Assembly (NCBI RefSeq): GCF_900089955.1
Contig: NZ_FLQX01000120.1
Location: 1-62,474 of the forward strand
Direction of reading: 5' to 3'
From: Candidatus Accumulibacter aalborgensis
GTDB taxonomy: Bacteria > Pseudomonadota > Gammaproteobacteria > Burkholderiales > Rhodocyclaceae
DNA: 62,474 nucleotides
Translations under genes and position numbers: made by a program
Shown: positions 9,333-62,474 of the stretch, piece after piece
Numbering within the stretch: the stretch's first letter is position 1
Layout of the letters: each line of letters starts with the position of its first letter
Notes under the pieces: generated by a model
The model's database searches: none
The model's input: the letters and a program-made list of their open reading frames with translations, nothing else
What the model was told of the DNA's origin: nothing

Positions 9333-11045
9333 GTGGCCAAGGCCAGTCGCCTTTTGGCGACCGCTGTTGCGTCCATCGATAAGCCAGTGAGCGGGCAAGC
9401 AAGCGGCCAGGTGAGCGGCCGTCTGATGTGGCTCCTCTGGATCGCCCTTGCGGCAGTCTGGTTCGGCACCCTTGGCCAACGTGCCTTGTTACGTCCCGAC
9501 GAGGGACGTTATGCAGAGATCCCGCGCGAAATGATCGCCACCGGCGACTGGCTGACGCCGCGCCTCAATGACCTCAAGTATTTTGAAAAGCCCGCCCTGC
9601 AGTACTGGGCAACGGCCATCGGCTTCAAGATTTTCGGCGAGAGCGAGTGGACGGCCCGGCTCTGGCCGGCTCTGACCGGCTTCCTCAGCATCGTGCTGGC
9701 TGGATGGACCGGGCAGCGCTTGTGGGGACCGCCGGCAGGCCACCTGGCGGCCGCCATTCTGGCCAGTTCACTGCTTTTCGCGGTCATGGGCCACCTCCTT
9801 ACCCTGGATATGGGTCTGTCCTTTTTTCTGCAGGTAGCGTGGACCGGGTTCCTCTTTGCCCAGCAGGAGGACAGTCGCACCGGCCGGCGCTGGATGCTGG
9901 TCGCCTGGGCAGGACTGGCACTGGCGGTATTGTCCAAGGGCATCGTGGCCCTGGTCCTGATCGGCGCAGCCCTGGTCGGCTACACCGCGCTCAACCGGGA
10001 CCTGTCGCCGTGGAAGCGGCTCTCGCCGCTGGCTGGGCTGGCGCTCTTCCTGACCATTGCCGTACCCTGGTTCGCCGCGGTTTCCCTGGCCAATCCCGAA
10101 TTCCCGCATTTCTTTTTCGTTCACGAGCACGTCGAGCGCTTCCTCACCACGGCTCATCGCCGCGACGAGCCGAGTTGGTATTTCGTCGCTGTCTACGCGC
10201 TCGGTGCCCTGCCCTGGAGCCTGCTCCTGCTGCACGCCCTGGCCCGGGCCTGGGGTCAGCGCGGCCAGCCTGGTGCGGGTACCTTCAGCCCACAGCGCTT
10301 CCTGCTGCTCTGGATACTGGGCACTTTCGCCTTTTTCAGCGTCTCCGGTTCGAAAATGGCGCCCTATCTGCTACCCATCTTCCCGGCCCTGGCGTTGCTC
10401 GGCGGACGCCATATCGCCGAGCTGTCGCGACGCACCTGGCTGCTCCACCTGGGGCTGCTGGCCGTGCTGTCTTGCGCTGCCCTGGCTTCGGTCGACCGCG
10501 TGCAGGAGCTGGCCGGCGAAGGCTATTCGCTGGCCATGCTGCAGGGCCTCGCCACCTGGCTGGCCGGCGCTGCCGGCGTCTTCCTGGCCGGCGTCCTGGC
10601 CGCGGCGGTGCTGGTGTGGTCGTACCGCCCTGCCACTGCGGTCACCGTGCTGGCCGTCGCCGGGTTGCTGAGCACGATCATTGGCCTCCAGGGCCACGAC
10701 CAACTGGCGTCCTACAATTCAGCCAGGAGCCTGGCTGCCCAGGCACTGCCCCGGATGAAGCGCGGACTGCCCTTCTACAGCGTGCTCTCTTACGAGCAGA
10801 CGCTGCCCTTCTACCTCAAGCGCACGCTGACCCAGGTCGAGAACCAGAACGAGATGCGCTTCGGTCTCGAACAGGAGCCTGAAAAATGGATTCCTGCCGT
10901 CGAGGAGTTCAAACAGCGTTGGCACGACGATCGGCAGGCTTACGCCGTGATGAAGATCGACGCATTCGAGACCCTGGTCGCCGACGGTCTGCCGATGACC
11001 GAGATCGCTCGCGACCGGCGCTACGTCATTGTGGAAAAAAACTGA
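9333..11045 (+). CDS. arnT: ArnT-type glycosyltransferase (L-Ara4N transferase to lipid A)
   Basis: A 570-residue integral membrane GT-83/PMT-type glycosyltransferase with about a dozen transmembrane helices. The conserved periplasmic loop motif RPDEGRYAEIPREM follows the first helix, and the DLKYFEKPALQYW motif comes next, both typical of ArnT. ArnT moves 4-amino-4-deoxy-L-arabinose from undecaprenyl phosphate to lipid A at the periplasmic face, lowering negative charge and polymyxin binding. The start is a GTG at 9333; the first in-frame ATG is at 9426 just before helix 1, so the N-terminus is uncertain. It is the first gene of the arn operon here, whereas in E. coli arnT follows arnBCAD. 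Confidence 0.88.
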   Translation: MAKASRLLATAVASIDKPVSGQASGQVSGRLMWLLWIALAAVWFGTLGQRALLRPDEGRYAEIPREMIATGDWLTPRLNDLKYFEKPALQYWATAIGFKIFGESEWTARLWPALTGFLSIVLAGWTGQRLWGPPAGHLAAAILASSLLFAVMGHLLTLDMGLSFFLQVAWTGFLFAQQEDSRTGRRWMLVAWAGLALAVLSKGIVALVLIGAALVGYTALNRDLSPWKRLSPLAGLALFLTIAVPWFAAVSLANPEFPHFFFVHEHVERFLTTAHRRDEPSWYFVAVYALGALPWSLLLLHALARAWGQRGQPGAGTFSPQRFLLLWILGTFAFFSVSGSKMAPYLLPIFPALALLGGRHIAELSRRTWLLHLGLLAVLSCAALASVDRVQELAGEGYSLAMLQGLATWLAGAAGVFLAGVLAAAVLVWSYRPATAVTVLAVAGLLSTIIGLQGHDQLASYNSARSLAAQALPRMKRGLPFYSVLSYEQTLPFYLKRTLTQVENQNEMRFGLEQEPEKWIPAVEEFKQRWHDDRQAYAVMKIDAFETLVADGLPMTEIARDRRYVIVEKN

Positions 11046-11046
11046 C

Positions 11047-11418
11047 ATGAGTCCTATCGCGTTCACCCTGATCCTGACCGGCGTGCTGCTCAACGCCGCA
11101 GCCCAGTTGCTGCTCAAGGCTGGTACCAATGCCATCGGCCACTTCGACTTCCAGCTCGGCAACGTCATTCCGATCGGCATGAAGATCGCCGGCCAGCCCT
11201 TCATCATCGGCGGTATGGCCTGCTACGCGGTGAGCGTGCTGATCTGGATCATGGCGCTGTCGCGCGTGCCGGTGAGCATCGCCTACCCGATGCTGTCGAT
11301 CGGTTATGTGGTCAATGCCTTCGTCGCCTACTACTGGTTCGGTGAGCCACTGATGGTGCAGAAGATGGTCGGTATCGGCGTCATCATTGTCGGTCTGGTC
11401 CTGGTAGCCAACTCATGA
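11047..11418 (+). CDS. arnE: SMR-type flippase subunit (ArnE-like)
   Basis: A 123-residue protein with four transmembrane helices of the small multidrug resistance/EamA-like fold (LNAAAQLLLKAGTNAIG, then YAVSVLIWIMALSRVPVSIAYPMLSIGYV, then VGIGVIIVGLVLV). In enterobacteria ArnE and ArnF form a heterodimer that flips undecaprenyl-phosphate-Ara4N. Only one such gene is present here, so it may act as a homodimer, or its partner lies elsewhere. The ATG is one base after the arnT stop, and the gene overlaps arnB by four bases (ATGA). Confidence 0.8.
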   Translation: MSPIAFTLILTGVLLNAAAQLLLKAGTNAIGHFDFQLGNVIPIGMKIAGQPFIIGGMACYAVSVLIWIMALSRVPVSIAYPMLSIGYVVNAFVAYYWFGEPLMVQKMVGIGVIIVGLVLVANS

Positions 11419-12551
11419 GTCGGTCTTTGAACACCCTGTTGAGCGTTCCTTTCCTCCCCTTCACCCGGCCCTCGATCGACGAGGAAACCATCGCCTCGGT
11501 GGCCGAGGTGCTGCGCTCGGGCTGGATCACCAGTGGCCCCAAGGTGCAGGCCTTCGAAGCCGCCCTCGCCGAAATCTGCGGCGGGCGCACCGTGCGCGCC
11601 TTCAACTCCGGAACTGCCGCCCTGGAAGTCGCCCTTCGGCTGGCCGGCGTCGGTCCCGGCGACGAGGTGATCACCACGCCCCTGACCTGGGTAGCCACTG
11701 CCAATGTGATCCTTGAAGTGGGCGCCAGCCCCGTTCTGGTGGACATCGACCCGACGACGCGCAACATCGACCTGAAGCGCATCGAAGCCGCCATGACCTC
11801 ACGGACGAAAGCGCTGATCCCGGTAGACCTCGCCGGCCTGCCGGTCGACCGTGACCGGCTGTACGCCATCGCCGCCCTGGGCCGGCTGCGGGTGGTCGAA
11901 GATGCGGCACAGTCCTTCGGCGCCTCCTGGAACGGCCAGGCCATAGGCAGCAGCGGCGACTTCGTCGCCTTCAGCTTCCACGCCAACAAGAACCTGACCA
12001 CCAGCGAGGGCGGCGCGCTCGTGCTGCCGGCCGACATCGACGCGGGTCTCTGCGAACGCCTGCGCCTGCAGGGAGTGCAACGCTCTCCCGATGGCGGCAT
12101 GGACGTCGACGTCCTCGGCGGCAAGTTCAACCTCACCGACGTCGCTGCCGCGATTGGCCTGGGCCAGCTCAAGCGCCGACATGAGTTCGACGCGCGGCGC
12201 CGTGCCCTGGCCGCGCGCTACTTCGAGCGACTCGACCCGGATCTCGGGCTGGAACTGCCACCGGCGGACTTTAACCATTCCAACTGGCACATGTTCCAGC
12301 CGCTGTTGCCCGCCGGCAGCGACCGTGCTGCCTTTATCGCCGCCATGAAGGAATTGGGTATCGGCATCGGCGTCCATTACCCGGCGCTGCATCTGTTCAC
12401 CCTCTACCGCCGTCTGGGCTTCACTGCCGGTCAGTTCCCGCACGCCGAAGACGTAGGTGCGAGAACCGTGACCCTGCCGCTTTTTCCCGCCATGAGCGAT
12501 GCTGATGTGGATCGCGTCTGCACCGCGCTGACCAAAGTACTCAAGCATTGA
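11415..12551 (+). CDS. arnB: UDP-Ara4O aminotransferase (ArnB)
   Basis: A 378-residue PLP-dependent DegT/DnrJ/EryC1/StrS aminotransferase that converts UDP-4-keto-arabinose to UDP-L-Ara4N using glutamate. The PLP lysine is K192 in SFHANKNLTTSEGG, matching the ArnB K188 region. Also visible are AFNSGTAALEVAL (cofactor phosphate site), DLAGLPVD, EDAAQSFGA (PLP-ring Asp) and the C-terminal HYPALHLFTLYR and LPLFPAMSD motifs. The start overlaps the arnE-like gene by ATGA, so translation is coupled. Confidence 0.92.
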   Translation: MSRSLNTLLSVPFLPFTRPSIDEETIASVAEVLRSGWITSGPKVQAFEAALAEICGGRTVRAFNSGTAALEVALRLAGVGPGDEVITTPLTWVATANVILEVGASPVLVDIDPTTRNIDLKRIEAAMTSRTKALIPVDLAGLPVDRDRLYAIAALGRLRVVEDAAQSFGASWNGQAIGSSGDFVAFSFHANKNLTTSEGGALVLPADIDAGLCERLRLQGVQRSPDGGMDVDVLGGKFNLTDVAAAIGLGQLKRRHEFDARRRALAARYFERLDPDLGLELPPADFNHSNWHMFQPLLPAGSDRAAFIAAMKELGIGIGVHYPALHLFTLYRRLGFTAGQFPHAEDVGARTVTLPLFPAMSDADVDRVCTALTKVLKH

Positions 12552-12554
12552 GCC

Positions 12555-13493
12555 ATGAACACCCCTGAAATCACCGTCGTGATTCCCGTCTACAATGAGG
12601 AAGATGGCCTGCAGGTCCTCTTCGACCGCCTCTACCCGGCCCTCGACCAACTCGGCCCGTCCTACGAAATCATCTTCGTGAACGACGGCAGCCGCGATCG
12701 TTCGGCGGCCATTTTGCGCGAACAGTACCAGAGGCGTCCCGACGTCACCCGTGCCATCCTCCTCGCCGCCAACGCCGGCCAGCACATGGCGATCATGGCT
12801 GCCTTCGAGAACGCGCGCGGCCAGATCATCGTCACCCTCGACGCCGACCTGCAGAACCCTCCGGAGGAGATCGGCAAGCTGATCAGCAAGATGCGCGAAG
12901 GCTACGACTACGTCGGCAGCATCCGCCGCCAGCGGCGCGACAACCTGTTCCGCAACTGGGCCTCGAAGGCCATGAATCGCCTGCGCGAGCGTACCACCCG
13001 CATCAGGATCACCGACCAGGGCAACATGCTGCGGGCCTACTCGCGCAGCGTGGTCAACGCCATCAATTCCTGCCGGGAGGTCAGCACCTTCATCCCGGCG
13101 CTGGCCTATACTTTCGCCCGCAACCCGACTGAGGTGGTGGTGGAACACGAAGAGCGCGCCCTCGGCGAATCGAAATACTCTCTCTACAGCCTGATCCGCC
13201 TCAACTTCGACCTGATGACCGCTTTCTCGCTCGTCCCGCTGCAATGGTTCTCCATGCTTGGCATCGTCGTCTCCATGGGCTCGGCGGCGCTGTTCGTACT
13301 GCTGATCGTCCGCCGCATCCTGCTCGGCCCCGAGGCCGAGGGTCTGTTCACCCTCTTCGCGCTGGCCTTTTTCCTCATCGGCCTGGCCCTGTTCGGCATC
13401 GGTCTGCTCGGTGAATACGTCGGCCGGGTCTACCTGCAGGTGCGCCACCGCCCGCGCTACCTGATCGAAGCTGTCCTGGAGCAGCAAGAATGA
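12555..13493 (+). CDS. arnC: Undecaprenyl-phosphate Ara4FN transferase (ArnC)
   Basis: A 312-residue GT2-family transferase that attaches the formylated sugar to undecaprenyl phosphate. The GT-A domain shows VVIPVYNEEDGL near the N-terminus, IIFVNDGSRD, LDADLQNPPEEI (DxD metal site) and a Q-G-N-M-L-R-A-Y acceptor segment. Two C-terminal transmembrane helices (about residues 232-255 and 270-295) anchor it to the inner membrane. It lies three bases after arnB and overlaps the next gene by four bases. Confidence 0.92.
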   Translation: MNTPEITVVIPVYNEEDGLQVLFDRLYPALDQLGPSYEIIFVNDGSRDRSAAILREQYQRRPDVTRAILLAANAGQHMAIMAAFENARGQIIVTLDADLQNPPEEIGKLISKMREGYDYVGSIRRQRRDNLFRNWASKAMNRLRERTTRIRITDQGNMLRAYSRSVVNAINSCREVSTFIPALAYTFARNPTEVVVEHEERALGESKYSLYSLIRLNFDLMTAFSLVPLQWFSMLGIVVSMGSAALFVLLIVRRILLGPEAEGLFTLFALAFFLIGLALFGIGLLGEYVGRVYLQVRHRPRYLIEAVLEQQE

Positions 13494-14431
13494 GCGCCGC
13501 GCCGCGAGCGGTGGTCTTCGCCTACCACAACGTCGGTGCGCGCTGCCTGCGCGTGCTGCTGGCCCACGGCGTCGATGTCGCTCTGGTGGTGAGCCACGAG
13601 GACGAGCTCAACGAGAATATCTGGTTCGAGCGCGTGGCCGCGCTGGCGCACGCCTACGACATCGCCGTCGCGACGCCCGCGGACCCAGGTACAGCCGAAT
13701 TCATCGGCCAGTTGCAGGCCCTGCGTCCTGACTTCTTCTTCTCGTTCTATTATCGCCTGATGCTCAAGCCCGCACTTCTGGCCATCCCGACGCGCGGTGC
13801 CTACAATATGCACGGTTCGCTGCTACCCAGATACCGCGGCCGGGTGCCGGTCAACTGGGCGCTGATCCACGGCGAAAAGGAAACCGGAGCCACCCTGCAC
13901 CGTATGGTGGAGAAGCCGGATGCCGGCGAGATCGTCGCCCAGCAGGCGGTACCGATCCTGCCCGACGACACGGCCAGCGAAGTCTTCAACAAGGTGACCG
14001 TGGCCGCCGAGCTGGCGCTGGACGGGGTGCTGCCGGCGCTGTTGGCTGGCCGGGCAGCACACGTGATGCCTGATCTCGCGGCGGGGAGCTATTTCGGCGG
14101 ACGCAAGCCTGAGGACGGTCGCATCGACTGGACCCAGCCAGCGACCGTGGTGCACAATCTGATTCGGGCCGTCGCCCCGCCCTACCCTGGGGCGTTCTTC
14201 GACCTCGGCCGGCACCGCATCGTCATCACCCGCAGCCTTTCCCAGCCTGGCTGGAGCGGGCCAGCCGGACAGCCGCAACTCTACACCGACCAGGCCGAGC
14301 TATTTGCCCGTTGCGCGGACGGCGGGGTAGTCAAGATTCTGTCGCTTGAACTCGACGGCGAGGCGATTGCTGCCGCCGCCTTACCCGCCCGACTGGGCCA
14401 CAATCCTCTTCCTCTGGTCTTTCCCTCATGA
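13490..14431 (+). CDS. arnA: UDP-L-Ara4N formyltransferase (separate ArnA N-terminal domain)
   Basis: A 313-residue 10-formyltetrahydrofolate-dependent formyltransferase equivalent to the N-terminal half of E. coli ArnA. The catalytic set is visible: N106 and H108 in NMHGS and D144 in KPDAGEIV (E. coli N102, H104, D140). SLLPRYRGRVPVNWAL and a C-terminal OB-like domain follow. It N-formylates UDP-L-Ara4N before transfer to the lipid carrier. In enterobacteria this domain is fused to the dehydrogenase; here the two are separate genes joined by an ATGA overlap. Its 3' part has a diverged partial copy at 17425-17496. Confidence 0.9.
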   Translation: MSAAPRAVVFAYHNVGARCLRVLLAHGVDVALVVSHEDELNENIWFERVAALAHAYDIAVATPADPGTAEFIGQLQALRPDFFFSFYYRLMLKPALLAIPTRGAYNMHGSLLPRYRGRVPVNWALIHGEKETGATLHRMVEKPDAGEIVAQQAVPILPDDTASEVFNKVTVAAELALDGVLPALLAGRAAHVMPDLAAGSYFGGRKPEDGRIDWTQPATVVHNLIRAVAPPYPGAFFDLGRHRIVITRSLSQPGWSGPAGQPQLYTDQAELFARCADGGVVKILSLELDGEAIAAAALPARLGHNPLPLVFPS

Positions 14432-15471
14432 AAAAAATTCTTGTTCTCGGCGTCAACGGCTTTATCGGCCACCACCTCTCGCAACGCATCCTCGCCCATA
14501 CCGACTGGGACGTCTACGGAATGGACATCAACAGCGAGCGGGTCGCCGACCTGATGGACCATCCGCGCTTTCATTTCTTCGAGGGCGACATTACCATCAG
14601 CAAGGAGTGGATCGAGTATCACGTCAGGAAGTGCGACGTGATCCTGCCGCTGGTGGCCATCGCCACCCCGGCCACTTACGTCAAGGAACCCCTGCGGGTC
14701 TTCGAGCTGGACTTCGAGGCCAACCTGCCGATCATCCGTCAGGCCGTCAAGTACCGGAAACGGGTCATCTTTCCCTCCACTTCCGAGGTGTACGGGATGA
14801 GCCAGGACCCGGAATTCGACGCCGAGAACTCGCCGCTGATCTACGGCCCGATCAACAAGCCGCGCTGGATCTACGCTTGCGCCAAGCAGATGATGGACCG
14901 CGTGATCCACGCCTACGGGCAGCAGGAAGGTCTGCAATACACGCTGATCCGCCCCTTCAACTGGGTCGGCCCGGGCCTGGACTCGATCCATACGCCCAAG
15001 GAAGGCTCTTCCCGCGTCATCACCCAGTTCCTTGGCCATATCGTTCGCGGCGAACCGATCAAGCTGGTCGATGGCGGTGCCCAGAAGCGTTCCTTCACCT
15101 ATGTCTCCGACGGCATCGACGCCCTGATGAAGATCATCGAGAACAAGGACGGCGTCGCCAACGGCAAGATCTACAATATCGGCAACCCGAAGAACAACTA
15201 CTCGATCCGCGAACTGGCCACCCTGATGCTCGATCTGGCCAGGGAGTACCCGGAATACGCCGACTCGGCCGCCCGGGTGACGATCGTCGAGACCACCTCC
15301 GGCGAGTACTACGGCACCGGCTACCAGGACACCCAGCACCGGGTGCCCAAGATCGACAACACGATGAACGACCTCGACTGGGAGCCGAAGGTGCCGTTCG
15401 AGGACGCTCTGCGCGCGATTTTCGAGGCCTACCGGGGCGACGTCAGCGCAGCGCGCAATCTGGTGGACTGA
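14428..15471 (+). CDS. arnA: UDP-glucuronate oxidative decarboxylase (separate ArnA C-terminal domain)
   Basis: A 347-residue extended short-chain dehydrogenase equivalent to the C-terminal half of E. coli ArnA. It oxidises and decarboxylates UDP-glucuronic acid to UDP-4-keto-arabinose with NAD+. Visible are the NAD-binding VLGVNGFIGHHLSQ at the N-terminus, FPSTSEVYGM (catalytic Ser/Glu region) and the YxxxK motif in WIYACAKQMMDR (Y149, K153). It overlaps the formyltransferase gene by four bases. A 26-bp stretch at 14865-14890 recurs exactly in the arn mosaic at 17497-17522. Confidence 0.92.
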   Translation: MKKILVLGVNGFIGHHLSQRILAHTDWDVYGMDINSERVADLMDHPRFHFFEGDITISKEWIEYHVRKCDVILPLVAIATPATYVKEPLRVFELDFEANLPIIRQAVKYRKRVIFPSTSEVYGMSQDPEFDAENSPLIYGPINKPRWIYACAKQMMDRVIHAYGQQEGLQYTLIRPFNWVGPGLDSIHTPKEGSSRVITQFLGHIVRGEPIKLVDGGAQKRSFTYVSDGIDALMKIIENKDGVANGKIYNIGNPKNNYSIRELATLMLDLAREYPEYADSAARVTIVETTSGEYYGTGYQDTQHRVPKIDNTMNDLDWEPKVPFEDALRAIFEAYRGDVSAARNLVD

Positions 15472-15484
15472 GGCCTCGCGACTG

Positions 15485-16408
15485 ATGCGCCAACTGGTCC
15501 TCAAGGTCGACGTCGACACTTACCGCGGCACTCTGATCGGCGTGCCGCGCCTGGTGGATCTATTCCGCCGCCATGGCGCCGACGCGACATTCCTGTTCTC
15601 GCTGGGCCCCGACCACACCGGCCGCGCCATCAAGCGCGTCTTCCGCCCCGGTTTCCTGAGCAAAGTGTCGCGAACCTCGGTGCTTGCACACTACGGCTTG
15701 AAAACGCTGCTGTACGGCACCTTGTTACCAGGCCCGGACATCGGCCGCCGCTGCGCCGACGTCCTTCGCGGCGTCCGCGATGCCGGCTTCGAAACCGGCA
15801 TTCACTGCTGGGACCACATCGCCTGGCAGGACGGCGTGCGCGGCGCCGAAATGGCGTGGACCGAGCGCCAGGTGCTCCTGGCCGGCGAACGCTACGCCGA
15901 GATCTTCAAGACCGCCGCGACGGTCCATGGTGCCGCTGGCTGGCAGATGAACGCGCACGCTTTGCGCCTGACACAGCAACAGGGTTTCAGCCACTCCTCC
16001 GACTGCCGCGGCAGCCGACCCTTCATCCCGGTGTGGAACGCCGAAGTGGTGAACTGCCCGCAACTGCCCACTACCCTGCCAACCCTTGACGAACTCATCG
16101 GTGTCGATGGCGTCGACGAGGGCACGGTGCACGAAAGCCTGCTCGCCCTGACCCGGCAAGCGCCTGTCACCGGCCATGTATTCACCCTGCACGCCGAGCT
16201 GGAGGGAATCAAGCTGGCACCGGTACTGGAAAAGCTGCTCCTCGGATGGCGGCAGCAAGGTTATACCTTGGTCAGTTTGCGCGCGCTGCGCGCGCGCCTT
16301 AACCCGAACACGCTGCCGCGTCACGAAGTCCTCTGGGGCACCGTTCCCGGCCGCTCCGGCGAACTGCTGGTGCAGGGGCCGGAATTCCTGGTCGCTGTCG
16401 CCGATTGA
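15485..16408 (+). CDS. arnD: 4-deoxy-4-formamido-L-arabinose-phosphoundecaprenol deformylase (ArnD)
   Basis: A 307-residue polysaccharide-deacetylase-fold enzyme that removes the formyl group from undecaprenyl-phosphate-Ara4FN, making the sugar ready for flipping and ArnT. Metal and catalytic motifs are LKVDVDTYRG at the N-terminus and GIHCWDHIAWQD (metal-binding His pair). HGAAGWQMN and VFTLHAELEG complete the fold. It is the last gene of the operon, 13 bp after the dehydrogenase. A diverged piece of its 5' region is present at 17523-17583. I saw no clear terminator in the 104 bp before the convergent PEP-CTERM gene. Confidence 0.92.
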   Translation: MRQLVLKVDVDTYRGTLIGVPRLVDLFRRHGADATFLFSLGPDHTGRAIKRVFRPGFLSKVSRTSVLAHYGLKTLLYGTLLPGPDIGRRCADVLRGVRDAGFETGIHCWDHIAWQDGVRGAEMAWTERQVLLAGERYAEIFKTAATVHGAAGWQMNAHALRLTQQQGFSHSSDCRGSRPFIPVWNAEVVNCPQLPTTLPTLDELIGVDGVDEGTVHESLLALTRQAPVTGHVFTLHAELEGIKLAPVLEKLLLGWRQQGYTLVSLRALRARLNPNTLPRHEVLWGTVPGRSGELLVQGPEFLVAVAD

Positions 16409-16512: not shown

Positions 16513-17196
16513 TCAGCTCTTGCGGCGACGCGAAAAGCCGAACGCCGCCAAGCCCAGACCCATCAACGCCAGCGACGCCGGCTCAGGAATGCCCGCCGGT
16601 CCGCCGACGCTGCCGATGGGGCGCCAGGCAAACGACTCATTGCCCACCGATGCGTAGTCGAAGCCTTCGGTATCCAGAACATGGCCCGTGTCACCGAACG
16701 TCGTTGGCACGCTGTCCACGTCGATCGTCACGGTCGGGAAGACGGTCGCGCAAATCGCGGGATCGGTCCCAAGTCCGAGGCAAGGATGGGCAGCGTCCGT
16801 AATGATGGCAACGTCGCTGGTGTCGAAGTCGTAGTAGAAGGTATTGGTCAGGATCAGCGCGTCGCCAACACCAATGCTCACCCCGGCCCCGAACATCCCC
16901 GCCCATATGTTGCCGAGGCTCGTCCCATTGATGACGACGCTCGTGGAATAGACCGTCATTGCGCTGCTACCGGTATTCCGAATCATGATCGCACCGGAGT
17001 CGTCACCTGGTCCTGTGATTCCGAAGAAAGTAATGCCTGCGTCACCGCTCCAGGGACTCGGAAAGAAGCCTACCCCGCGCAACCCGTCCGCATAGCCTAC
17101 GGATACGCTGTACGTCCCTGCATTCGCAGCCAGCGGTACGGTCAACGCCAGGCAGGCTGCAACCACCAACCGACAAGATTTCACTTTGTGCAACAT
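16513..17196 (-). CDS. Secreted PEP-CTERM protein of unknown function
   Basis: A 227-residue protein with a signal peptide (VVAACLALTVPLAANA) and a C-terminal PEP-CTERM sorting signal: IPEPASLALMGLGLAAFGF followed by SRRRKS. Such proteins are processed by exosortase and found at the surface or in extracellular polymer. The middle is a beta-rich domain with many Gly, Thr and Asp and two Cys (near C-L-G-L-G-T-D-P and A-I-C-A-T). No enzyme motif is recognised. The start has AAGGGG just upstream. Convergent to arnD. Confidence 0.85.
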   Translation of the reverse strand: MLHKVKSCRLVVAACLALTVPLAANAGTYSVSVGYADGLRGVGFFPSPWSGDAGITFFGITGPGDDSGAIMIRNTGSSAMTVYSTSVVINGTSLGNIWAGMFGAGVSIGVGDALILTNTFYYDFDTSDVAIITDAAHPCLGLGTDPAICATVFPTVTIDVDSVPTTFGDTGHVLDTEGFDYASVGNESFAWRPIGSVGGPAGIPEPASLALMGLGLAAFGFSRRRKS

Positions 17197-17424
17197 CGCA
17201 TTCCCCTTTCGAGAGATGGGTACAGAAAAGGCCCGTTCGCCGATGATCTGGAGATCTGAGTGCCAACCAAGGTGATCGTCATTCGCGGCCGCGGCAGCGT
17301 GGCCTGCGAACTGTGTGAAGCAAGTTACATGCCTATTGGTTGCGTTGTTAGCAGATCAATGACTTAGGAAAATTGATGGGCTGCATTGCTGGGTGAGTGT
17401 AAAGTTTTTCGACAGTCGTCCAGG

Positions 17425-17583
17425 CGGACAGCCGCAGATCTACACAGACGAGGCCGCGCCCTTTGCCCGTTGCGCCGACGGCCAAGTAGTCAAGATCTGG
17501 ATCTACGCTTGCGCCAAGCAGACGTGCCGCGCCTGGTGGCCCTGCTCCGCCGCCCTGGCGCCGACGCCGCCTTCCTGTTGTCG
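17425..17583 (+). pseudogene. Three-part fossil of a second arn copy (arnA-FT / arnA-DH / arnD)
   Basis: Three pieces of the nearby arn operon are joined in operon order. 17425-17496 aligns without gaps to 14266-14337 in the formyltransferase gene (61 of 72 bases identical by eye). 17497-17522 equals 14865-14890 in the dehydrogenase gene (26 of 26). 17523-17583 aligns to 15541-15601 in arnD (52 of 61). The first two pieces are in their original reading frame relative to each other; the arnD piece is out of frame. The roughly 15% divergence of the outer pieces shows they do not come from a recent copy of the local operon. It looks like a paralogous or imported arn cluster collapsed by large internal deletions. 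Confidence 0.8.
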
Positions 17584-17802
17584 GAAAATTTTACACAAGG
17601 AGGATGGTCGCTTGCCGAGAAAATATAGAGGTACTTATAAATCAATGTCGTGGCCAGTATAGTATGATTCTTGCTTACCGGACCAGCGGTTCCGGCAAGC
17701 GGTTTTGTACTCCGCCGGAGAGAAGTTGGGACGAGTGCGGCCGTCGAATGATGGCAGGCGGTGTGGTTCGATTGCTGTTATCAACATAGGGAGCAACAGG
17801 CG
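17584..17802. other. AT-rich intergenic region with imperfect hairpin
   Basis: This stretch is clearly more AT-rich than its surroundings. An imperfect inverted repeat at 17671-17702 (TTGCTTACCGGA paired with TCCGGCAAGCGG) is followed by GGTTTTG and could act as a weak terminator or simple hairpin. A short open frame at 17604-17789 has a good AAGGAGG in front but no recognisable product; I do not call it. Confidence 0.4.
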
Positions 17803-19014
17803 ATGAAAAGAAGTGCTTGGCGTCGTGACGCCGCTTCACTCGTGTCGCGCGCAGCGCGTTGTCTGCGTGGGTTTGGGCAAGGAAAATCCGCAGGGATGAC
17901 CTTGAGGCGTACACCGCTGAGTTGGCCCCTGGCCATCATCGCCGTGGCCGCAGCAACGAGTGCTGAAGCAAGTTACTCAAATTTGTTCCTTTTTGGCGAC
18001 AGTCTTTCCGACAGTGGCAACAACGCTGCCGTATTCGACTATGTTATCGGCCCGGCGGTCCCACCCCCCGATGGACCTCTGCCTCCGGGCACCCTGCGAA
18101 CGCCGGTGCCAACACCAGATAATTCGTTCATCCCAGCGTACCCCTACGCTTACCCCAGTCCCGCTCTTCCCCTCAGCGGCCGCTATTCGAACGGGAAAGT
18201 GTGGGCCGAGACTTTTGCACCGGCTTTCGGCCTCAGTGCAGTGGCCTCCGAGCTTGGTGGAACAAACTTCGCATTCGGTGGCGCACGCGTCGGGATCACA
18301 CCACCCAGCGGATTTCCGCCCAGCCTTTCTGCCCAGCTTGGCGGCTTTCTCGCAAAGACCGGAGGCGTGGCGCCAGCCAGCGCGCTCTACGTCATCGAGG
18401 GCGGCGGAAATGATGCGCGCGACATCATCGAGGCCGCAGCCAAGGCGCCAGCGGACGCTGCGGCGATCATCGAGGCGGGTGCCATCGCTTACGCGGCTGC
18501 CGTGGATGCAATGGTCGAGCAACTGGAGGCGGCCGGCGCGAGAGACATCGTCGTATGGAACACACCGAACGCGGGTACCGGGCCGGCGATCATCGCTGCC
18601 GGCGCCAAGAACCTGGGGACGCTCGTTGCGCAGACCATGAACGCCTTCCTGCTCGCCGCTCTTGCCGACGACATCTTCGACGGAGTGAAGATTTTTGATG
18701 CCTATGGCGTCAGCACCAGTATCAGCAACGATCCGGGTGCGTACGGCCTGGTGGACGCGGCGAACGCCTGCTCGGCGGCGGCCAATATCGCTGCGTGCGC
18801 AGCAAGCGGATACCAGTACTTCTTCTGGGACGGCATCCATCCGACTGCAGCAGGCCATCGGCTTCTTGCCAATGCGATGATTTCGCTGGTCCCCGAACCG
18901 GCTACCGTTGTCCTGCTGGCGCTCGGCCTGTTCGGCGTGGCGACCACACGCAGGCGCCAAACACCGTTTCACGCGGTCGCGCCGTCCAGGACAGCCTACT
19001 CGCTGACCAACTGA
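17803..19014 (+). CDS. Secreted SGNH/GDSL esterase with PEP-CTERM signal
   Basis: A 403-residue GDSL-type hydrolase. Block I is FLFGDSLSDSGNN with the catalytic Ser, block III is the IEGGGNDARD segment, and block V is WDGIHPTAAGHRL with the catalytic Asp/His pair. A signal-like hydrophobic helix (WPLAIIAVAAATSA) lies about 40-50 residues in, preceded by an unusually long basic lead. The C-terminus VPEPATVVLLALGLFGV followed by TTRRRQ is a PEP-CTERM signal, so it is probably surface-attached. GGGAG nine bases before the ATG at 17803 supports this start; an internal ATG at 17896 is an alternative that gives a shorter signal peptide. Likely substrates are esters of lipids or polysaccharides, unproven. 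Confidence 0.85.
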   Translation: MKRSAWRRDAASLVSRAARCLRGFGQGKSAGMTLRRTPLSWPLAIIAVAAATSAEASYSNLFLFGDSLSDSGNNAAVFDYVIGPAVPPPDGPLPPGTLRTPVPTPDNSFIPAYPYAYPSPALPLSGRYSNGKVWAETFAPAFGLSAVASELGGTNFAFGGARVGITPPSGFPPSLSAQLGGFLAKTGGVAPASALYVIEGGGNDARDIIEAAAKAPADAAAIIEAGAIAYAAAVDAMVEQLEAAGARDIVVWNTPNAGTGPAIIAAGAKNLGTLVAQTMNAFLLAALADDIFDGVKIFDAYGVSTSISNDPGAYGLVDAANACSAAANIAACAASGYQYFFWDGIHPTAAGHRLLANAMISLVPEPATVVLLALGLFGVATTRRRQTPFHAVAPSRTAYSLTN

Positions 19015-35520: not shown

Positions 35521-37314
35521 TCAGCTATGCTCGATTGGCGGGGCGACCTTGAATACCTCCGCCAGCGTCGTCACACCGGCGGCGACTTTCATCGCCCCGG
35601 ATATTCGCAATGGTTTCATGCCTTCACGGAAAGAGAGATCGCGAATCTTGGCAATATCCTTGTGTTCGCTGATCGCCAGCTTGATGTCCGGAGAGAGCAT
35701 CAGAATCTCGTACAGGCCAACGCGTCCGAGGTAGCCGGTCATGCGGCAATCGAGACAGCCGACCGGGCGGTAGAACCGCGATGGACGATTGGCTTTCCAG
35801 GGGGCGACCAACTGATCCCACATCGTCTCTTCGAGCGGGCTGGCTTCGTGAACCTGCTTGCAGTTCGGACAGAGGATGCGCACCAGTCGCTGGGCCATGA
35901 CACCGAGCATGGTCGCACCGAGCAGATACGGTGGAACGCCGAGATCGAGCATCCGGGTGACCGCTGACGGGGCGTCGTTGGTATGCAGGGTCGACAGCAC
36001 CAAGTGGCCGGTGAGTGCCGCCTGAATCGCCACCTCAGCGGTTGCGAGGTCGCGGATTTCGCCGATCATGATGATGTCCGGATCCTGCCGCATCAGGGCG
36101 CGCACGCCTTGCGCAAAACCGAGGTCGATGACGTTCTGCACCTGCATCTGGTTGAACGCCGGCTCGACCATTTCGATCGGGTCTTCGATGGTACACACGT
36201 TGACCGCCGGTGTGGCCAGTTGCCGGAGCGTTGAATACAGCGTCGTCGTCTTCCCCGAACCCGTGGGGCCGGTGACCAGGATGATGCCGTTCGGCCGTTC
36301 CGACATCTCTTTCCAACGTGCCTGATCATCGTCGGTGAAGCCGAGATCGGCGAAACTGCGGACCAGCACTTCCGGGTCGAAGATGCGCATCACGAGCTTC
36401 TCGCCGAAAGCCGTGGGCAAGGTCGATAGGCGCATTTCGGCTTCCTGCCCGTCAGCCGTGCGGGTCTTTATTCGGCCGTCCTGTGGTCGACGCTTCTCGA
36501 CCAGGTCCATGCGGCCAAGAATCTTGACGCGGCTGACCATCGCCGCCATGACGCTCATCGGAATCTGGTACACCTGATGCAGCACGCCGTCGATCCGGAA
36601 ACGGACGATGCCGAGTTCACGCCGGGGTTCGATATGGATATCGCTGGCGCGTTGCTCGAAGGCGTACTGCCAGAGCCAGTCGACGATATTGACGATGTGC
36701 TGATCGTTGGCGTCGAACTGGCGATTGGTCCGGCCGAGTTCGACCAACTGCTCGAACGACGAGAGATTGCCGCTCGGACCACCGAGTTGAGCCGCTTTCT
36801 TGACCGAGCGCGCGAGATTGTAGAACTCGACCAGATAGCGCGCCACGTCGACCGGGTTGGCCATCACCCGTCGAATGTCCTTCTTGATGATCGGCCGCAT
36901 CTCCTTTTCCCAGTCTCGCAGAAAAGGCTGCGTGGTGGCGACGACGACCTCGCGCGCGGTGACCTGAACTGCCAGAATGCCAAAGCGTGTCGCGTAGGCA
37001 CTCGACATCACCTCGGTGACGGCGGTGAAGTCGACCTTCAGCGGATCGATGTGCTGATAGTCGAGGCCGACTCTGGCGGCCAGCCACTCGCCCAGATCGT
37101 CGAGCGTCAAGGGCCGATGCGGCTCGCGCCGCGACTTCCACTTCTGATCGGCGATGAGCGACAGGGGATGCGCCACCAGACGCTTGAGACGGCTCTCCTT
37201 CAGCAGGACCTCGGCGTCTGGCGCGCTGACCATTTCGTCGTCGACCAGCCAGCCGAGGACCTCGGCCAGGGTCAGGCGATGATCGTGAACGGTGTTCACC
37301 ACGGCTTCGGCCAT
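35521..37314 (-). CDS. GspE/PilB-family secretion or pilus ATPase
   Basis: A 597-residue hexameric ATPase of the type II secretion/type IV pilus class. An N-terminal MshEN-like region is followed by the core with ASDIHIEPRRE, RRPQDGRIK, Walker A TGPTGSGKTTTLYSTL, Asp box, Walker B DPDIIMIGEIRD and His box STLHTNDAPSAV. The CxxC pairs (LCPNCKQ and GCLDCRMTG) form the usual zinc subdomain. No other secretion or pilus gene is in the window, so it is an orphan whose partners are elsewhere. Start at 37314 has GGAAGA upstream. It follows malQ-treY by 29 bp and may be read from the same transcript. Bases 37116-37181 recur at 53066-53131. Confidence 0.88.
   Translation of the reverse strand: MAEAVVNTVHDHRLTLAEVLGWLVDDEMVSAPDAEVLLKESRLKRLVAHPLSLIADQKWKSRREPHRPLTLDDLGEWLAARVGLDYQHIDPLKVDFTAVTEVMSSAYATRFGILAVQVTAREVVVATTQPFLRDWEKEMRPIIKKDIRRVMANPVDVARYLVEFYNLARSVKKAAQLGGPSGNLSSFEQLVELGRTNRQFDANDQHIVNIVDWLWQYAFEQRASDIHIEPRRELGIVRFRIDGVLHQVYQIPMSVMAAMVSRVKILGRMDLVEKRRPQDGRIKTRTADGQEAEMRLSTLPTAFGEKLVMRIFDPEVLVRSFADLGFTDDDQARWKEMSERPNGIILVTGPTGSGKTTTLYSTLRQLATPAVNVCTIEDPIEMVEPAFNQMQVQNVIDLGFAQGVRALMRQDPDIIMIGEIRDLATAEVAIQAALTGHLVLSTLHTNDAPSAVTRMLDLGVPPYLLGATMLGVMAQRLVRILCPNCKQVHEASPLEETMWDQLVAPWKANRPSRFYRPVGCLDCRMTGYLGRVGLYEILMLSPDIKLAISEHKDIAKIRDLSFREGMKPLRISGAMKVAAGVTTLAEVFKVAPPIEHS
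37116..37181 (-). repeat. Source copy of 66-bp gspE-like fragment
   Basis: This part of the GspE/PilB-like gene (coding LVAHPLSLIADQKWKSRREP) recurs at 53066-53131 with 64 of 66 bases identical (differences at 53110 and 53124). Here it lies in the middle of a normal N-terminal domain, so this copy is taken as the source. Confidence 0.8.
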
Positions 37315-53052: not shown

Positions 53053-53399
53053 GAAATATCCGAATGATGCGGCTCGCGCCGCGACTTCCACTTCTGATCG
53101 GCGATGAGCAACAGGGGATGCGCGACCAGACACGACGATACCGAACGGCGGAAACACAAGAGGACAGAGAGAACCAAGATGATTGAGGAGGGTTCGGGAA
53201 CCCCGAAAACAGCGGATATGGGGAGCACGCTGGCCGTACCACCGAGATAGTCAAGCCCGCACATATTTTCCTCGACGACGATGACCACATGGTCTGGCTG
53301 TGGCAGCGCCCAAACTGATGCCGCGCTGGACGAGAGAGCCGCTCCTGCCAGAACGGCCCGCAAAAATACCTGAACCGAGGGTTTGCGCACGGCTTCCAT
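53049..53399 (-). pseudogene. Broken PEP-CTERM phosphoesterase-like gene with gspE-like tail
   Basis: An open frame of 116 residues with a strong AAGGAGA ribosome site. It contains a signal peptide (ending SAASVWA), the start of a phosphoesterase/acid-phosphatase-type domain (LPQPDHVVIVVEEN), then after about 20 residues a PEP-CTERM signal (VPEPSSIILVLSVLLCFRR). The catalytic domain is missing. After the sorting signal the frame runs into the copied gspE-like piece (LVAHPLLLIADQKWKSRREP) and stops at the antiporter start. I read this as a gene collapsed by internal deletion. It could still make a small secreted protein. Confidence 0.6.
53066..53131 (-). repeat. Copied 66-bp fragment of the gspE-like gene
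   Basis: 64 of 66 bases match 37116-37181 in the same strand orientation. The copy is in the original reading frame and fused in frame to the preceding PEP-CTERM remnant. No flanking inverted repeats or target duplication was recognised. Confidence 0.8.
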
Positions 53400-61899: not shown

Positions 61900-61933
61900 G
61901 GGCTTCGGCTCCGCGCACCCGCACCTTGACCCG

Positions 61934-62474
61934 GTTTCAATCCGCGCCCCTCGTTGCCGAGGGGCGATGCGCCTTGGGCGGAGTTGGCGTAGCCCGTGGT
62001 GTTGTTTCAATCCGCGCCCCTCGTTGCCGAGGGGCGATGCCTCCGTTGCGCATCGGGCTGATGTCAAATGGATGGATGTTTCAATCCGCGCCCCTCGTTG
62101 CCGAGGGGCGATGCTTCGCACGACGCTGGATAGGTCTGGCGAAAGCTGTTTCAATCCGCGCCCCTCGTTGCCGAGGGGCGATGCCGCGCTCTCCGGCGGC
62201 GACGGCGGGGAATGTGATGGTGTTTCAATCCGCGCCCCTCGTTGCCGAGGGGCGATGCCCGGCGGCGGATGCTGTGATGCAGATTGTCTACCAGTTTCAA
62301 TCCGCGCCCCTCGTTGCCGAGGGGCGATGCCCGATCATCAGCGCAGCAGCGCAGCCCCGCTGGGACCGTTTCAATCCGCGCCCCTCGTTGCCGAGGGGCG
62401 ATGCGAACGCCGAACCATCGTGCAACGTCGCTGATCTGGTTTCAATCCGCGCCCCTCGTTGCCGAGGGGCGATG
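61934..62474. CRISPR. CRISPR array, eight repeats seen, continues past window
   Basis: Eight copies of an identical 37-bp repeat start at 61934, 62004, 62078, 62148, 62222, 62294, 62368 and 62439; the last is cut by one base at the window edge. Spacers are 33, 37, 33, 37, 35, 37 and 34 bp, all different. The repeat begins GTTTCAATCC, ends GGCGATGC, and has a 9-bp stem (CGCCCCTCG with CGAGGGGCG, loop TTGC). Read on the minus strand it ends ATTGAAAC, the usual 3' handle of type I and III crRNA repeats, so transcription is probably leftward, with the leader to the right and the oldest spacers at 61971 onward. No cas gene is in the window. The 37-bp length suits I-B, I-G or III-type systems; the subtype cannot be decided. 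Confidence 0.95.

Follow-up and report, generated by a model that had tools for sequence, protein, structure and literature searches.

We found that the 164 bases at 17420-17583 of the window (the whole stretch of 62,474 nt that was analysed) form a mosaic of three abutting pieces of the arn-type operon of the same window, all on the same strand and collinear with it, with no gaps within or between them in BLASTN. We consider it probable that this mosaic is what erosion has left of a partial duplication, on the same strand, of the local operon; the duplication would have arisen as PEP-CTERM gene DNA was inserted and would then have been reduced by deletions down to the promoters of two divergent PEP-CTERM genes. 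The features on which this reading is built are listed in Table 1.

Table 1. Features of the arn operon, the mosaic and the flanking PEP-CTERM genes (window positions).
Feature	Positions	Strand	Basis and remarks
Intact arn-type operon (arnT, arnE/F-like, arnB, arnC, formyltransferase, dehydrogenase, arnD)	9333..16408	+	source of the pieces; NCBIfam matches, seven genes
PEP-CTERM protein gene (left)	16513..17196	-	TIGR02595 27.7 bits, cutoff 16
Sigma-54-like -24/-12 element (motif 2), left gene	17318..17334	-	AGGCATGTAACTTGC, score 18 of 19; 63 nt from left motif 1
Putative PrsR-type activator site (motif 1), left PEP-CTERM gene	17398..17414	-	minus-strand TGTCG-N6-TTTACA; motif as described in PMC1569441
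Mosaic piece A	17420..17496	+	arnA-type formyltransferase gene, 3' part; source 14261-14337, BLASTN 65/77
Mosaic piece B	17497..17522	+	arnA-type dehydrogenase/UDP-pentose synthase gene; source 14865-14890, BLASTN 26/26
Mosaic piece C	17523..17583	+	arnD, 5' part; source 15541-15601, BLASTN 52/61
Putative PrsR-type activator site (motif 1), right PEP-CTERM gene	17579..17595	+	motif match; first 5 bases shared with the end of piece C
Candidate sigma-54 element, right gene	17659..17675	+	TAGTATGATTCTTGC, score 14 of 19; 63-64 nt from right motif 1
GDSL-type esterase/lipase-like gene with PEP-CTERM (right)	17803..19014	+	NF045906 E 8.3e-21, below curated cutoff; TIGR02595 28.1 bits, cutoff 16

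An earlier note on this DNA had reported three arn matches in operon order, about 1.2 kb of missing intervening sequence and a location between two PEP-CTERM genes. All of this was recovered, with piece A slightly longer than noted, with 527 + 650 = 1177 bp of source sequence absent from the mosaic, and with both neighbouring genes above the TIGR02595 cutoff. When the whole window was compared with itself, pieces A, B and C gave E-values of 4.9e-17, 1.2e-5 and 3.8e-12, respectively, and at E 1e-3 they were the sole matches touching the intergenic region. The mosaic scores 86 bits against the operon and a chance match is excluded, because the best control reached 33.7 bits both in 500 shuffles and in 3000 random windows of the same genome; the alignment to arn genes that the earlier note had proposed as a check is thus significant. 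The mosaic keeps 164 of at least 1341 bp and piece C is out of frame with respect to A and B, hence we considered it a pseudogene relic, precisely a sequence in which genes are still recognisable and which cannot encode their products.

Regarding the source operon, just two of its seven genes score above the curated cutoff of their best model, namely the formyltransferase (NF005414) and the dehydrogenase (NF008872); the curated NCBIfam cutoffs were presumably set on other taxa. Two further repeats were observed elsewhere in the window: a tandem array with units of about 72 bp at 61931-62474, reaching the contig end, and a 66-bp direct repeat (97%) at 37116-37181 and 53066-53131, 16 kb apart, with one copy in a called gene and the other outside.

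The earlier note took the mosaic for the fossil of an arn duplicate shortened by two deletions inside it, and we prefer this part of its reading as well. The duplicated segment would have spanned at least 14261-15601 of the local operon, and two internal and two end deletions would have taken away the rest. The mechanism of these deletions is not visible, because the junctions between the arn pieces, as they stand, have 0 bp of microhomology, so that the junction inspection suggested in the earlier note returned nothing. A different origin, which we regard as unlikely, is a one-step templated insertion: a repair polymerase jumping forward along the operon as its template would have copied three short stretches of it, and the resulting DNA would have been joined in between the two activator sites. 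In its favour, the pieces are short (77, 26 and 61 bp), gapless and flush between these sites, and no trace of the rest of the arn duplicate was found within the window (BLASTN, self-comparison). However, all three pieces share operon order and strand, for which deletion accounts without coincidence, and a second relic of this genome, from secF (see below), contains an exact deletion between 8-bp repeats, even if template switching could also give that.

As for the source of the duplicate, the earlier note attributed the mosaic to a different arn copy, either a paralogue or an imported cluster, and expected a single foreign operon to resemble all three parts more closely than the local operon does. 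We searched 61 genomes (the genome under study, 27 other members of the genus and 33 further genomes) and scored the best 13 first-look candidates of each genome. Within this scope, none of the 60 other genomes gave a match beating the local operon for any piece: the best foreign match was 81% for piece C (85% locally) and 96% for piece B (100% locally), and for piece A there was no foreign match at E 1e-4. The attribution to a separate copy is therefore not supported, and in the 61 genomes, so searched, and the aligned orthologues nothing matches better than the local operon. Over the 77 bases of piece A, the fossil shares 65 with the local gene, whereas the counts for eight orthologues of the genus are 48-57 against the local gene and 40-55 against the fossil; therefore, the split of the fossil from the local operon seems to be later than the divergence of those species. 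The perfect match of piece B is not odd in this respect, because nine relatives also keep 20-25 of its 26 bases.

Polarising the differences with eight orthologues assigned 9 changes to the fossil branch (7 at codon positions 1 and 2, 2 at position 3) and 4 to the local branch (1 at positions 1 and 2, 3 at position 3), with 8 ambiguous. The direction of this contrast is that of neutral decay of the fossil, and the contrast is not significant (Fisher p 0.22). An arn region with the site still empty is not available, because no examined relative retains the arn neighbourhood: none of the four genes after arnD was found in the arn regions of nine relatives, three of which end 0.5 kb or less past arnD.

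The polarised comparison bears on the possibility that the mosaic is what is left of an arn cluster imported, together with the PEP-CTERM genes, from a close unsampled species. At the third codon positions 14317, 15586 and 15589 and at the first codon position 15563 the fossil has the base that is common among relatives and the local gene does not, and the search covered one genome per species. On the other hand, no sampled relative is nearer to the fossil than the local operon is, both among the best 13 candidates per genome and among the aligned orthologues, and we consider such an import quite improbable.

The mosaic fits flush between two putative regulatory elements. Inverted 17-mers, TGTAAARTTTTYCGACA, bracket it, the left one ending 5 bases before piece A and the right one overlapping the final 5 bases of piece C; these brackets are absent from the earlier note. 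According to the promoter description in Haft et al. (2006, PMC1569441), PEP-CTERM promoters carry a motif 1 of 17 nt ending in TTTACA at a mean distance of 62.8 nt from a sigma-54 motif 2, and PMC9850573 reports an experimentally demonstrated RpoN-dependent PEP-CTERM gene from elsewhere. The left arm has all the components of a PrsR/RpoN PEP-CTERM promoter, namely motif 1, a -24/-12 element within 32-92 nt and a PEP-CTERM gene. In the right arm motif 1, spacing and the PEP-CTERM gene agree with such a promoter, with a degraded -24 GG in the candidate sigma-54 element, whose score of 14 is at background (mean 14.5). Judged by sequence, the inverted 17-mers are PEP-CTERM motif 1 elements and not transposon ends. 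Because they match the published motif, the mosaic would be the entire spacer separating two divergent PEP-CTERM control regions, both predicted to be under PrsR/RpoN control.

The genome-wide distribution of the motif agrees with this assignment. The core TGTCG-N6-TTTACA has 23 matches in the 4.7-Mb genome, against 0 for the reversed control, and is found in 28/28 genomes of the genus, in which the control has few matches. Seventeen of the 23 sites are solitary, two pairs have the same orientation, and the single inverted pair of the whole genome is that of the window. We considered for promoter analysis the 22 sites of the 23 that have flanks. A PEP-CTERM-like ORF follows 17 of them by a simple regular expression (two site pairs share a gene), which missed the right-hand gene of the window, a gene that does reach TIGR02595. 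The sigma-54 score was at or above the 95th percentile of the background at 16/22 sites, and the right-hand site of the window is among the remaining six.

The brackets could also be taken for the terminal inverted repeats of a small mobile element (a MITE or a Pack-type element) that captured arn fragments, as their almost exact fit around the mosaic would suggest, but this is highly improbable and largely refuted, since the motif is mostly a solitary promoter element whose sole inverted pair is that of the window, and PEP-CTERM-like genes follow the sites with the spacing of sigma-54 promoters. Inspection by eye showed no evident target-site duplication next to 17398 and 17595.

Gene fragments as the filler between divergent PEP-CTERM promoters were also considered as a rule. 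They are not the rule, because two more divergent pairs of activator sites, found in another genome of the genus (G008) among the matches listed for the genus genomes, have spacers of 351 and 312 bp with no local match better than E 0.14.

Coming back to the partial duplication of the local operon, it would most likely have arisen as PEP-CTERM gene DNA entered downstream of arnD, either as a tandem duplication or through Campbell-type integration with one crossover. Selection would then have retained both divergent promoters, so erosion would have halted at their activator sites, and the present role of the mosaic would be that of spacer DNA at most. By itself, the arn scrap is an ordinary genomic fossil. 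Its position is what makes it informative, in that the extent of erosion appears to have been set by selection acting on a divergent pair of sigma-54 activator sites.

The description of such compact chimeras as unusual, in the earlier note, is too strong, given the other gene-fragment copies in the same genome. In 1.10 Mb of its 4.7 Mb we counted 18 direct copies of gene fragments in non-gene sequence, the arn pieces included, and one inverted copy. Downstream of their source lie 17/18 of the direct copies, or 16/17 when counted by source gene (sign test 0.0003). It has to be considered that 12/18 copies come from 409 kb chosen non-randomly (UAS-centred motif-1 stretches and the window) and that the remaining 690 kb contributed 6, with three of them at one repeat-rich locus (L176), and that the gene caller behind all these counts was home-made and crude, having once picked a wrong-strand ORF over arnB/arnC. 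In comparison sets that are small, other members of the genus had 6 copies in 521 kb, 4 of them downstream, and there were 0 copies in 420 kb from four genomes of other families and 0 in 50 kb of E. coli. Separately, a 46-bp copy (83%) of the 3' end of arnD was observed 6 kb downstream of arnD in another member of the genus (G010; L131 3036-3081 and 9032-9077).

A second locus with gene scraps beside PEP-CTERM-like genes lies on contig C35 of the same genome (L145 3900-4187 and 6855-6978), in which four fragments of the secDF neighbourhood (two from secF, one from secD and one from just downstream of secF) flank two genes with PEP-CTERM-like tails. These genes are weak members of the class, one with 15.3 bits against the TIGR02595 cutoff of 16 and the other matching PEP-CTERM subfamily models only, below their cutoffs; neither has a Pfam PEP-CTERM match. 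Two motif-1 sites (L145 4845 and 4965) lie upstream of the first. The two pieces of secF meet at an exact deletion whose ends are 8-bp repeats, the two copies of TGCCGATG. Their source lineage is less clear than that of the arn pieces, because the secF genes of relatives match about equally well (up to 90% vs 88% for the own gene in the first piece, 89% vs 92% in the second).

Same-strand copies also border inserted genes at other loci of the genome. On contig C94 (L140 8443-9810) macB is separated from a gamma-carbonic-anhydrase-like gene (NF050158 E 1.8e-48, below cutoff) by a toxin-antitoxin pair, whose antitoxin is of the Phd/YefM type and whose toxin is of the ParE family (both Pfam, above gathering). 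A 46-bp element from the 3' end of macB occurs on either side of the pair, and the duplicated flanking elements of the locus measure 46 and 53 bp. We considered the 15 loci obtained from 26 other genomes with a match (in G004 the flanks are on different contigs): in 15/15 the insert had no match and the carbonic-anhydrase gene directly adjoins the end of macB. In 12/15 the alignments of these two genes overlap, and the overlap contains the 46-bp element as a single copy; in 3 (L267, L268 and L269) there is no overlap. Because the two genes adjoin in relatives without the insert, the same-strand copy at macB marks an insertion.

At acnB (aconitase B by Pfam; contig C13, L137 2427-3487) a second toxin-antitoxin pair, nucleotidyltransferase/HepT by Pfam (above gathering), is bordered on one side by the gene and on the other by a 71-bp copy (97%) of its 3' end. 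Both flanks were matched in 8 genomes and are close in G012 only, about 158 bp apart vs about 1434 here, and the copy possibly marks an insertion as well. A third copy, 80 bp (96%) from the leuA 3' region, lies 836 bp downstream of it on contig C35 (L138 16777-17692). In the stretch between the two leuA copies (about 17001-17181) lies a repeat of about 180 bp that recurs in many genomes of the genus, by which the search for an empty site was confounded.

By analogy with macB and acnB, the arn mosaic would mark an insertion of PEP-CTERM DNA beside arnD. A broader proposal, which we put forward tentatively and hold to be rather doubtful, is that of a genus-wide process in which accessory genes (PEP-CTERM, toxin-antitoxin) enter beside core genes and leave, beyond the insert, a same-strand copy of the adjacent core segment, from 46 bp to more than 1.3 kb long. 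The mosaics at arn and secDF, as well as the repeats at macB and acnB, would then be its footprints at different ages. Taken together, the mosaic, the downstream same-strand copies and the uninterrupted macB site of relatives offer a way to map and date the settling of accessory genes, precisely surface-protein and toxin-antitoxin genes beside core operons in this genus.

In a literature search that was not exhaustive, no title found described a pattern like that of the arn mosaic. Relics of bacterial pseudogenes can arise by duplication followed by deletion, and the mosaic resembles them in its collinear, same-strand and diverged fragments near an intact source, as the secF relic does in its short-repeat deletion. 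It differs from them in consisting of three pieces only, packed in 164 bp, with a regulatory site marking its limit exactly on each side. Accessory modules are also known to insert beside core genes with duplication of a flank, by Campbell-type or homology-facilitated integration. The macB and acnB pairs, bordered by a direct copy of the core gene 3' end, are similar to these; for arn, however, no empty site is available. Finally, the PrsR/RpoN PEP-CTERM promoters, as described in PMC1569441, share with the window the 17-nt motif ending in TTTACA, the distance of about 63 nt to the sigma-54 motif and the PEP-CTERM gene downstream, whereas here two predicted ones stand back to back, with a degraded -24 on the right and with scraps of genes as their spacer.
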